In this document: one piece after another, positions 9,108-15,242 of the stretch
How positions within the stretch are numbered: the stretch's first letter is position 1
Layout: the number at the start of each line of letters is the position of its first letter
From: an uncultured Myxococcales bacterium
GTDB lineage: Bacteria; Myxococcota_A; UBA9042
DNA: 64,000 bases
Direction: 5' to 3'
Assembly: GCA_903842345.1 (NCBI GenBank)
Contig: CAIMLR010000007.1
Span: 62,001-126,000 of the forward strand
Position numbers and translations under genes: made by a program
Notes under the pieces: model-generated
The model's database searches: none
What the model was told of the DNA's origin: nothing
Seen by the model: only the letters and a program-made list of their open reading frames with translations

Positions 9108-9158
9108 ACGTCGGCTGATCGCCATCGCGCGGTCGTGTTTCCCACTTGGAGAATCCGT

Positions 9159-10844
9159 ATGCTCACGCGCCTCTCGACCCTTCCGGCCTCGGTTTCCTTC
9201 GCCCGCTCTGCGATCATCGCCAGCGCGCTACTCGTCGGTCTTTCGTCTTGCGGCGCAACCGCGGGCGGCGGCGGCGGCGGCGCGGGTACAGTCGGCGGCA
9301 AGGTCGACAGCGCGTGCAACGAGGCCTACGGCGAAGGCTGCTACTCGTTCAACGGCGTGACTTCCCGCGAGAAATGTACCGGCGGCAAGTGGACGCTCCT
9401 TGAGAACTGCGCCCAGGGCATGGTTTGCCAGGAGAAAATCACCGTCGCCGGGCAGCCCGCGCGGACGACGGAGTGCAAGGCGACATTCGTGACGCCGACG
9501 CCCGACACGACGAGCGGCGATGGCACCAGCAACGCGGACGGCACGACAACCGGCGACACCACGATCAAGCCTGACGGCACGACAACGGGCGACACGACGA
9601 CTGGCGACACAGCGACTGGTGACATGAAGGGCGGCGACACGACCGGCACCATCACAGAATTGCTCAAGTGTGCACAGGCGAGCTGCGCCGACCAGTGGGC
9701 GTCCTGCCAGATGGACACGTCCTGCATGGCCGTCCTCTCCTGCTTTGGCAGCTGCACCGCCGACGCCATCACGTGCGCCACGACGTGCCAGAAGTCCGGC
9801 GACAGCACGTCCCTCTCGCTCTTGCAGTGCGCGCAGGCCACGTGCACCGGCTCCGCGGTCTGCGGCGACGGCAAGTGCACCGGCAGCGAGGCCAACACGT
9901 GCCCGCAGGACTGCGCGACCGGCCCGGTGTGCGGCAACGGCACGTGCGAATCCGGTGAGAACGCGACAAACTGCGCGCAGGATTGCCCCGTGACCGATCT
10001 CTGCGGCAACGGAAAGTGCGACGCGGGCGAGACGCCCATCACGTGCCTGACCGACTGCTCGACGGCCTCGTGCTGCACGTCCAAGGGCTACAAGTGCGGC
10101 ATGGTCGACGCGTGCAACGGCTCGTGCGGCGTGTGCAGCGGCAATCAGGTGTGCAACGCGTCGTTCAAATGCGTAGCGGGCGGCGCGGTGTGCGGCAACG
10201 GCACGTGCGAGTCCGGTGAGACCTCGACGAGCTGCCCGTCCGACTGCCCCGCGACCAGCAAGGTCTGCGGCGATCTGACCTGCTCGTCGGGCGAAACCAG
10301 CACGTCCTGCCCGCTGGACTGCCCGCCAAGCGGCTGCGGCGACTCGTTCTGCAACTCGCCCAGCGAGACCGCCAAGACCTGCCCGCAGGACTGCGATCCG
10401 TCGACCCAGTGCATGCTCGCCAACTGCCAGTCGCAATGGCTGGCGTGCGCGGGCAATTCCGCTTGTGCGTCAGCGCTCACGTGCCTTGCCGGATGCGCTG
10501 CGGGCAACACGACGTGCGCGCAAGCCTGCTACACGAACGCCTCGGCGGCCGCCAAGACCCTGATGACAACGTACAGCACGTGCTACACCAACGCCGGCTG
10601 CAACAGCACCGCCCCCGTCTGCGGCAACGGCACGTGCGAGACCGGCGAGACCACGGCGACGTGCCCCGCGGACTGCCCGACGACGACGTTGGACCCGGGC
10701 TGCACTGCCAAGACCGGCTCGCCCGGCTGCGGCGGTTGCTCGTGCGAGGCGACCGTGTGCGCGTCGGACGCGTTCTGCTGCAGCAACACGTGGGACTCTG
10801 CTTGCGTCAACGAGTGCAAGACCGCGGGCACAGTCTGCCCGTAG
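9159..10844 (+). CDS. Cysteine-rich repeat lipoprotein (CGNGxCxxGE type)
   Basis: 561 residues. The ATG at 9159 gives a lipoprotein signal with lipobox LSSC (Cys31). A Thr/Gly/Asp-rich linker covers about residues 110-165. Seven repeats of CGxxxCxxxE...CxxDC type follow, in two groups. Two related four-disulfide modules flank them ('CADQWASCQMDTSC' and 'CQSQWLACAGNSAC'), and the end is a CxC...CCxxxWDxxCV module. This architecture marks secreted or surface lipoproteins of Myxococcota; the role is probably adhesive or structural. The nearly all-paired cysteines imply oxidative folding outside the cytoplasm. Divergent from the CcmH-like gene, convergent with the gene at 10878, with a palindrome between. 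Confidence 0.78.
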   Translation: MLTRLSTLPASVSFARSAIIASALLVGLSSCGATAGGGGGGAGTVGGKVDSACNEAYGEGCYSFNGVTSREKCTGGKWTLLENCAQGMVCQEKITVAGQPARTTECKATFVTPTPDTTSGDGTSNADGTTTGDTTIKPDGTTTGDTTTGDTATGDMKGGDTTGTITELLKCAQASCADQWASCQMDTSCMAVLSCFGSCTADAITCATTCQKSGDSTSLSLLQCAQATCTGSAVCGDGKCTGSEANTCPQDCATGPVCGNGTCESGENATNCAQDCPVTDLCGNGKCDAGETPITCLTDCSTASCCTSKGYKCGMVDACNGSCGVCSGNQVCNASFKCVAGGAVCGNGTCESGETSTSCPSDCPATSKVCGDLTCSSGETSTSCPLDCPPSGCGDSFCNSPSETAKTCPQDCDPSTQCMLANCQSQWLACAGNSACASALTCLAGCAAGNTTCAQACYTNASAAAKTLMTTYSTCYTNAGCNSTAPVCGNGTCETGETTATCPADCPTTTLDPGCTAKTGSPGCGGCSCEATVCASDAFCCSNTWDSACVNECKTAGTVCP

Positions 10845-13920: not shown

Positions 13921-14964
13921 CTACTCCGCGACGAATGCGCCGGTTGCGGCATCGCAGTGGTACAGTTCCGCGGCGCGCAGTTCGCCACCCAGCACGCTCA
14001 AGACCAGATAGGCAACGCCCGGATACATCGGCTGACCGCCCGGAGCGGCGCAGCGCACATCTTCCGCGGAGAAATAGGCGCCGGCATCGCAGTGGGAGTG
14101 CCAGATCGCCACGAGCGATTCACCGGCGTCGGCCGATTTGGCGATCACGCGTTCGTTCAGCTTGTAGGCCGTCCGCGAGGTCCGCGGGAATTCGCGTGGA
14201 TCCAGCGCGTGGTATCGATCCTGCAGATTGGGGCAGACGATGGCGTGCAGGTTGCCGTCTGGCTTGCGCACGATCAGGCCGCAGGTCTCGGTCGGATAGC
14301 CGCGCACCACCTCATCGGCGATGGGCTGCCACACGCGTACGTCGCCGCGCATCTCCGCCAACAGCCCCCGCGGCGGCGTGAACTGGCTCGGCGCGAGCGA
14401 ATCCTGGCTGCGCGCCTGCTTGGTCAGTTTGGGCGCGGTGGGATCCGTCCAGTCGATCGCCACGATGGCCGGCAGCGGTTCCAGGTGCAACACGTCCGCG
14501 AGGATCAGCTCCGCCGCCGCCGCGCCGAGCACGACCGCCAGATCCAAAGGCGCGGGCGCGCCGAGCTCAAAGCGCAAAGTCGCCACGCGCGCCGGACCGC
14601 TCTTGCCCGCCGCATAACCCGCATCGGCATCCGTAACGGCGACGTCAACGCTCGCGCCATAGGGCCGACTGGCGAACCAGTAGTGCGCCACCGGCGGCGA
14701 CGCGGCGCCCGGACCGTCGAGAAGCTGGAGCTGCGGGTCGAGCGCCTGCAGCGCACCGGCAAACGCGGACGGCGCCACGACTGCGCCAACGCCCGCGCCG
14801 ACGAGATACCGGCCACACGCTTCCGCCGCGGCCTGCGCCAGCTCACTCGTGTCACCGGCAAGGACCGCGGTCCAGTCGTGCAGCCGCGCCTGTCCGGCGA
14901 AATCCGCGCCGTCGACAAGCAGTTGCCGACCGTAACGGGCAAACAACAGCTTGGGGTCGCGCAC
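13921..14964 (-). CDS. E1-like/JAMM metalloprotease fusion
   Basis: 347 residues. The C-terminal third is a JAMM (JAB/MPN) metallopeptidase: Glu226 in 'YPTETCGL', then H289-S-H291-x7-S299-x2-D302, a perfect HxHx7Sx2D zinc motif. The N-terminal part begins 'RYGRQLLVDGADFAGQARL', the opening of MoeB/ThiF/E1 adenylating enzymes, but the GxGxxG nucleotide loop that should follow is lost and no catalytic Cys is evident, so the E1 part looks inactive. The GTG start at 14964 shares its first base with the upstream stop (TAGTG), coupling it to the MoaD/ThiS-like gene. JAMM proteins in such pairs trim the tail of the sulfur carrier (as in QbsD/QbsE and Mec/CysO). Its substrate is therefore most likely the neighbouring protein. 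Confidence 0.8.
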   Translation of the reverse strand: MRDPKLLFARYGRQLLVDGADFAGQARLHDWTAVLAGDTSELAQAAAEACGRYLVGAGVGAVVAPSAFAGALQALDPQLQLLDGPGAASPPVAHYWFASRPYGASVDVAVTDADAGYAAGKSGPARVATLRFELGAPAPLDLAVVLGAAAAELILADVLHLEPLPAIVAIDWTDPTAPKLTKQARSQDSLAPSQFTPPRGLLAEMRGDVRVWQPIADEVVRGYPTETCGLIVRKPDGNLHAIVCPNLQDRYHALDPREFPRTSRTAYKLNERVIAKSADAGESLVAIWHSHCDAGAYFSAEDVRCAAPGGQPMYPGVAYLVLSVLGGELRAAELYHCDAATGAFVAE

Positions 14965-15242
14965 TAGCAGCCGCCGGCAATCGCGGGAATGATGCTGATT
15001 TCCGCGCCATCGCTGACGGCGGTGTTCAAGCCGTCGAGGAAGCGGATGTCGTCTTCGCCGGCGTAGATGTTGATGAAGCGGCGGACCTTGCCGTCGTCGT
15101 CGACGAGCTTGGCGGAGATGCCAGGCGCCTTGGCTTCCAGGGCCTGCAGCACGGCGCCGACGGTGGCGCCTTCGACGGTGACGGAGTCCTTGTCAGCGGT
15201 GAATTTGCGCAGCGGAGTCGGAATCTTGACGATGACGGCCAT
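14964..15242 (-). CDS. MoaD/ThiS-like sulfur carrier ending in Gly-Gly-Cys
   Basis: 92 residues with a ubiquitin-like beta-grasp pattern: 'VIVKIPTPLRKFTADKDSV', 'GAVLQALEAKAPGISAKL', 'RRFINIYAGEDDIRFLDGLN', 'GAEISIIPAIAGGC'. Sulfur carriers normally end in Gly-Gly, which is adenylated and turned into a thiocarboxylate. Here one extra Cys follows the Gly-Gly. The ATG at 15242 has a GGGAGAA ribosome binding site. The stop overlaps the start of the JAMM gene. The likely role is donating sulfur for cysteine, molybdopterin or another cofactor after removal of the Cys. The extra Cys could also mimic a CysO-cysteine adduct. Family is firm, pathway inferred. Confidence 0.85.
   Translation of the reverse strand: MAVIVKIPTPLRKFTADKDSVTVEGATVGAVLQALEAKAPGISAKLVDDDGKVRRFINIYAGEDDIRFLDGLNTAVSDGAEISIIPAIAGGC

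Follow-up and report, generated by a model that had tools for sequence, protein, structure and literature searches.

In the QbsE/QbsD and HcyS/HcyD systems, the residues that follow the Gly-Gly of the sulfur carrier are removed by a JAMM partner, and in carriers of the QbsE/QbsD type the sequence of this tail is fixed. In M. tuberculosis, the Gly-Gly of CysO is described as the thiocarboxylate-bearing end, and Mec hydrolyses the CysO-cysteine adduct (PMC3227635). DRJAMM of Deinococcus radiodurans was reported to cleave MoaD-MoaE, leaving a C-terminal Gly, and the DRJAMM mutant accumulates cPMP (PMC8832034). MoaX of M. tuberculosis works only once it has been cut after Gly82, by a protease that had yet to be identified in 2015 (PMC4326299). 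In 2006, Iyer, Burroughs and Aravind raised the possibility that ThiS/MoaD is freed from fusions by JAB proteins, and they described operons of ThiS/MoaD, JAB and E1, some of which include a cysteine synthase (PMC1779556). With these precedents, trimming by a JAMM protease is a known activity; what is new in the present analysis is that the tail of carriers across a phylum follows no fixed sequence.

We analysed a stretch of 64,000 nucleotides (hereafter the window) from an uncultured Myxococcales bacterium (GenBank assembly GCA_903842345.1, contig CAIMLR010000007.1, positions 62,001 to 126,000). The assembly is of Myxococcota type and comprises 5.85 Mb in 50 contigs, with 95.7% completeness. 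A gene at 9135-10844 (+) of the window encodes a 569-aa Cys-rich protein with a signal-like start and many repeats resembling CGNGxCxxGExxxxCPxDC.

The carrier gene and its last codons

The carrier gene (14964-15242, minus strand) encodes a 92-aa protein of the ThiS/MoaD/CysO type. The beta-grasp ThiS domain of such carriers was recognised by Pfam (PF02597, E 1.1e-13, residues 5-91; 51.9 bits against a cut-off of 22.5), and the NCBIfam model for SAMP1 (NF041918) was matched at 60.0 bits, exactly its cut-off and hence borderline. The nearest solved relative was 3dwg chain C (E 1.1e-22), which we take to be CysO of M. tuberculosis. Translation confirmed the first-pass annotation of the C-terminus as IAGGC: the protein ends ISIIPAIAGGC, followed by TAG at 14964-14966. 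The Gly-Gly codons, which mark the functional C-terminus of the carrier, lie at 14970-14975, and the tail codon TGC (Cys92), whose removal we predict and which is variable among relatives, lies at 14967-14969. The ThiS family match ends at the second Gly, so that Cys92 falls outside it. A free Gly-Gly C-terminus is thus not encoded, as Cys follows, and would exist only after trimming.

A sequencing error at the last codon, which the first-pass annotation had named as a reason to drop its proposal, was ruled out because the run GGC-GGC-TGC-stop is identical in six other genomes of the window's family (L038, L041, L061, L039, L060, L059). One of these records, L039 (contig CAMDBH010000068.1), is titled as a Klebsiella pneumoniae MAG; the locus itself belongs to relative G005, a member of the group of the window's family, and the title is probably wrong.

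The GTG start of the JAMM gene at 14964 is the last base of the carrier stop, giving the one-base overlap TAGTG. This shared base would fit a role of the extra codon in translational coupling, in which it sets the distance from GGCGGC to the overlapping GTG. However, the spacing from the carrier stop to the next start differs among family members with the same tail (TGATCGTG in L038 and L041, TGAGCCTTGCAAGTG in L061), on which we rejected this explanation; its chance of being right is very slim.

The JAMM partner protein

The partner (13921-14964, minus strand) is a 347-aa protein in which Pfam, alignment, a structural model and structure comparison identified a degenerate E1-like half fused to a JAMM/Prok-JAB protease. 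The JAMM domain (residues 198-347, 13924-14373, minus strand) matched Pfam PF14464 at 2.9e-16 and carries HSHCDAGAYFSAED at 14059-14100 and Glu226 in YPTETCG. Residues E226, H289, H291, S299 and D302 were invariant in the eight aligned relatives, so the catalytic set is intact, and the JAMM half of the model reached Z up to 12.3 to JAMM folds among the matches listed. This domain was the sole Prok-JAB found in the window genome.

The degenerate E1-like domain (about residues 1-195, 14380-14964, minus strand) was assigned from weak profile matches and the model. It has an RYGRQ head at residues 10-14 (14923-14937) and no GxGGLG. The NCBIfam match to MoeB was weak (E 0.0058, residues 9-62), and a further profile match gave E 0.0078 over residues 8-62. 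In the model, built from eight sequences with a mean pLDDT of 81, the N-terminal half matched ThiF of the ThiS-ThiF complex (1zud) and, among the matches listed, the NEDD8-activating enzyme entries 3dbr and 1yov chain C, presumably APPBP1, with Z 9.4 over residues 13-185. JAMM chains dominated a second structure comparison, in which two of the matches listed cover the N-terminal half. The nucleotide-binding motif GxGGLG and SNLxRQ were absent from all eight aligned sequences, and R10, R13 and Q14 of the RYxRQ head with its arginine finger were invariant in all eight. Judged from alignment and model, the JAMM protein has as its N-terminal half a degenerate E1 with a retained arginine-finger head, RYGRQ. 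Among the PADLOC models of anti-phage E1/JAB systems (CBASS, Bil), the carrier and the JAMM protein matched no family; the matches of the headless E1 described below, to E1-E2 models and to BilD, were confined to its E1 part.

Tails after Gly-Gly vary among relatives

The carriers compared come from relatives and from families picked by hand across the phylum; this set includes the best matches and is not a random sample. Of its 101 distinct carrier-like ORFs, the counts cover the 93 that have a GG motif and E below 1e-15. Seven distant LSGG proteins, all ending in plain GG, were left out, as was L055, which lacks AGG at the expected place; near position 2344 of L055 (genome G029), the expected AIAGG end reads AVATGWYHGG-RDVA, owing to divergence or a sequence error. 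The presence of Gly-Gly in 93/93 carriers is circular, because the rows were selected by this motif.

The results showed that 60 of the 93 carriers have residues after Gly-Gly and that 33 end in plain GG. The tail is one residue long in 30 carriers, two in 13, three to five in 10 and six to eleven in 3, and in the other 4 the frame continues past GG into another enzyme, an E1. The first residue of the 56 short tails is R (14), A (12), C (10), L (7), V (5), W (2), H (2) or, once each, K, G, I and S; Asp, Glu and Pro do not occur. For Pro, about 11% would be expected from random codons at 66% GC, but the rows are related and its absence (0/56) is only a hint. The first-pass annotation had proposed to look for conservation of the extra Cys, and none was seen across homologues, which end after GG in R, V, G, AHG, AD, CFK, WR and further tails, or in nothing at all. 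Homologues with plain GG, the other case in which that annotation would have given way, make up the 33/93, most with a JAMM in the locus.

All 12 carriers of the window's family have a tail, which is exactly C in 7 and R, V, G, AHG and AD in one each; the R tail is that of a sister species in the same genus as the window organism. Cys-only tails in this family exceed the random-codon expectation, yet about five changes on the family tree suffice to explain them. On the tree of the 93 carriers, the presence of a tail changes at least 20 times, its first residue at least 45 times and the state 'exactly C' at least 6 times, and of the carrier pairs that are 70-85% identical in the core, 25% agree in tail state. 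Across distant relatives, the PAIAGG end shows little or no variation. These many changes and the low sharing between close pairs indicate a drifting tail behind a nearly constant PAIAGG end. The best reading is that the Cys itself is not special and that the tail is of free composition, with Cys as the version of this lineage.

We weighed against this a specific role of the encoded Cys, as a translated copy of the CysO-cysteine adduct that would be a normal substrate or regulator of a Mec-like JAMM. The terminal Gly-Cys would be the same bond that Mec hydrolyses in the adduct (PMC3227635), as far as the chemistry can be deduced, and 7 of the 12 family tails are exactly Cys. Nevertheless, Arg occurs in the sister species, Val, Gly, Ala-His-Gly and Ala-Asp occur elsewhere in the family, 33/93 relatives have no tail, and the window operon lacks a cysteine synthase. 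We consider this explanation very improbable, and a Cys-specific function was discarded as the main reading, since tails differ between species of one genus and are absent from 33/93 relatives. The proposal in the first-pass annotation that the protein mimics a CysO-cysteine adduct is not supported by these counts.

JAMM genes and operon context

A JAMM motif lies within 3 kb of the carrier in most loci, including most plain-GG loci. The pattern used (a regular expression) missed divergent cases such as L078 and L084, which Pfam later found. In 16 genomes chosen because no JAMM motif lay near the carrier, or because the case was doubtful, a Prok-JAB was present in 16/16, in one (G234) below the cut-off. 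We found no carrier-bearing genome without a JAMM, so there is no contrast for 'no JAMM, no tail'. Across 36 relatives, a Prok-JAB above the cut-off occurred in 19/19 genomes with a strong carrier versus 8/17 without.

In a second operon type, with the JAMM gene upstream, all 13 listed carriers extend past GG, 9 with short tails and 4 as fusions. In L113:2858-4279 (-), L116:3992-5419 (+), L126:3491-4765 (+) and L135:47-1408 (-), the carrier is fused through GG into an E1, and a JAMM gene lies upstream of all four. Pfam confirmed ThiF and rhodanese domains in L113, L116 and L135; in L126 the frame runs into the E1 and is truncated where the contig ends. Because GG is internal in these fusions, the carrier could use it only if cut there.

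An alternative is that the JAMM mainly releases carrier that is attached to proteins or present in a cysteine adduct, as a desampylase or Mec does, and that trimming is incidental. SAMP1 is the nearest named model of the carrier, HvJAMM1 acts with SAMP1 (PMC4443979), and 33/93 carriers need no trimming while most of their loci still have the JAMM motif. However, the 12/12 family members and the 13/13 listed JAMM-upstream loci would need trimming before any E1 step, and we regard this alternative as unlikely.

Pfam found no cysteine synthase (CysM) among the ORFs flanking the window operon; PALP genes occur elsewhere in the window genome. Many relatives have a cysteine synthase in the carrier operon, in some cases between carrier and JAMM (e.g. 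L086). The absence of both the E1 and the cysteine synthase of relatives from the window operon, together with four family genomes that keep E1 and JAMM and in which no carrier was found, could mean that the tail is never removed and that the carrier has no sulfur role in this lineage or acts as a binding protein. We judge this improbable, as an idle C-terminus would not need a PAIAGG end that is near-invariant over distant relatives.

Headless E1s and separate heads

E1s and heads were surveyed in 94 loci (the 93 counted and L055) with patterns and a single profile derived from the same data. The E1 upstream of the carrier was headless, starting directly at the GxGGLG strand, in 35/35 loci where the pattern detected it. 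In the other operon type, where the E1 follows the carrier or is fused to it, 15 of 15 E1s kept the head, and the heads found in those loci belong, by position, to the E1 itself. The pattern found no E1 in 44/94 loci, where tblastn often did. The carrier was followed, at a distance of up to 150 bases, by a separate head in 30 of the 35 headless loci and in 24 of the 44 without a pattern-found E1. The three separate heads compared with Pfam and NCBIfam matched only about the first 60 residues of MoeB/ThiF, and the window's family has the head as part of the JAMM protein. No head was found in five headless loci (L085, L088, L091, L140 and L138, of which four belong to a single family, f39), an argument against a head that is required in every case. 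At L253, L254, L255 and L257, a headless E1 adjoins an E1-like/JAMM protein, and no carrier was found in those genomes.

The related E1 of the window genome lies on contig C44 and is headless; a second E1, with rhodanese and head, lies on contig C47. Since an E1 is required and the related one is on C44, the earlier suggestion of a self-contained trim-and-activate module is doubtful.

The N-terminal Arg11 of ThiF and Arg14 of MoeB enter the ATP site of the neighbouring subunit and were reported as non-essential (PMC13139853), and MoeB and ThiF are described as homodimers (PMC12355090). In our loci, the E1-like half keeps the head, the upstream E1s are headless and the E1s of the other operon type bear heads, which together point to a split, asymmetric E1 with a protease built into its inactive half. 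The arginine that enters the ATP site is, we assume, the second Arg of the RYxRQ motif. In our reading of the sequences, the headless E1 and the head-bearing half would complete each other. We tentatively propose, as a possibility somewhat short of probable, that Myxococcota have a split E1 made of a headless catalytic E1 and a head-only pseudo-E1 whose gene directly follows that of the carrier. Through fusion of the pseudo-E1 with the JAMM in the window's family, a single heteromeric machine would trim and activate the carrier, and its protease may also mature ThiS and MoaD-MoaE of the genome.

Other carriers and possible further substrates

Seven ThiS-family genes were found in the window genome, and all seven encode residues after GG. 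Besides the window carrier with its Cys, ThiS ends in GGG-Ala, MoaD is fused to MoaE, and four ThiS-like genes end in GG-SK, GG-SK, GG-AR and GG-AR, each with a ThiF-like gene about 2 kb downstream. These four ThiS-like/ThiF-like copies (L033-L036 and L024-L027; contigs C17, C47, C7 and C42) form a repeated module, and the two ThiF-like genes tested from it scored 39-47 bits with PRTRC_ThiF, far below the cut-off. Tails on ThiS itself are rare, at 5 of the 25 read, with one further ThiS unparsed. They occur solely in G000, G001, G002, G004 and G005, all five with a window-type JAMM; each tail is one residue, and the only known Prok-JAB of those genomes is not beside ThiS.

A MoaD-MoaE fusion lies at L048:5287-5946 (-) and is the rule among relatives, occurring in 28/36. 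The comparison with the JAMM covers these 36 relatives; the fusion itself was looked for in 377 genomes. A carrier-type JAMM was present in 23 of the 28 fusion-bearing relatives and absent from 5 (G003, G009, G010, G016 and G019, with completeness of 88, 89, 94, 92 and 67%), so a need of the fusions for the JAMM is suggestive only; the MAGs of relatives are incomplete. G007, G008, G013 and G020 have a MoaD-MoaE fusion and an E1 adjoining a window-type JAMM protein. No carrier was found in these four genomes, so the JAMM protein probably has another substrate there, and the MoaD-MoaE fusions of relatives are possible substrates.

Discussion

We consider it likely that the carrier is made as a precursor whose tail, of free composition, is cut after Gly91 by the adjacent JAMM before adenylation by an E1 and thiocarboxylate formation; cleavage, E1 pairing and the thiocarboxylate are inferred. 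The gene product would be the precursor of a CysO/SAMP1-like sulfur carrier. The JAMM protease would expose the Gly-Gly carboxylate, which an E1 would adenylate and which would then take up sulfur as a thiocarboxylate. As the JAMM would always be at hand, the stop codon would not be held in place directly after GG, so that tails could arise, drift and vanish, with read-through into the following E1-rhodanese gene as the extreme. The degenerate E1 half probably binds either the carrier or the headless active E1, and trimming and activation might thus occur in one complex.

Tail variability, JAMM co-occurrence, the in-frame E1 fusions, the absence of Pro, and the DRJAMM and MoaX precedents were counted in support of trimming; the 7/12 family tails that are exactly Cys and the five tailed ThiS that are not beside a Prok-JAB were counted against it. 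The context supports the JAMM as the natural remover of the tail, by analogy with the JAMM release of the terminal Gly of MoaD from MoaD-MoaE (PMC8832034). The first-pass annotation held that the Cys blocks the tail until the coupled JAMM removes it. The residue after GG and the intact JAMM catalytic residues support this as far as context goes; a need for the residue to be Cys is not supported.

These findings suggest that, in much of a phylum, the GG C-terminus of the carrier is apparently left to a protease instead of being encoded; annotation by terminal GG would then miss most such carriers. Window-type JAMMs are also candidates for cutting the MoaD-MoaE fusions common in the phylum. If the division into head and headless E1 is true, bacteria have set the active half of an E1 for a sulfur carrier apart from the inactive half and linked the latter to a protease, and the origin of asymmetric E1s could be tested in small proteins.

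Comparison with known systems

Like CysO-Mec-CysM of M. tuberculosis, the window locus has a CysO-like carrier sequence and an adjoining JAMM gene in the operon, with an intact zinc motif, and many relatives have the cysteine synthase in their operons. Unlike that system, the window carrier has an encoded tail, the JAMM is fused to an E1-like half, and the operon has no cysteine synthase. MoaD-MoaE/DRJAMM and MoaX resemble the locus in a Gly-Gly end freed from a longer precursor, which in the window is a prediction; the extra part here is one non-conserved residue, whereas theirs is an enzyme subunit. With QbsE/QbsD and HcyS/HcyD the locus shares residues after the carrier GG and a JAMM partner (their removal being predicted in the window), but the pathway is another and the window-type tail, which is not conserved among relatives, lacks the fixed sequence of the QbsE/QbsD type.

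In operon types 4b and 4c as defined by Iyer, Burroughs and Aravind, a ThiS/MoaD-like protein likewise occurs together with JAB and E1, and a cysteine synthase may be present or absent; the E1 of those operons is fused to rhodanese, whereas here a headless E1 stands apart and the head is separate or fused to the JAMM (PMC1779556). Sections 12 and 16 of that paper make no mention of short tails or a split E1. Titles and abstract openings on inactive adenylation domains and on MoeB/ThiF, a scope with subscription literature mostly outside it, name no bacterial split E1. In UBA3/APPBP1 and yeast Tcd1-Tcd2, the active half receives its arginine finger from an adenylation half that is itself inactive (for Tcd1-Tcd2, PMC13139853), as we propose here; unlike those pairs, the proposed one is bacterial, and its inactive half would consist of a head and a partial fold joined to a protease. 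If true, the arrangement would be a bacterial parallel of the active and inactive halves of eukaryotic E1s.
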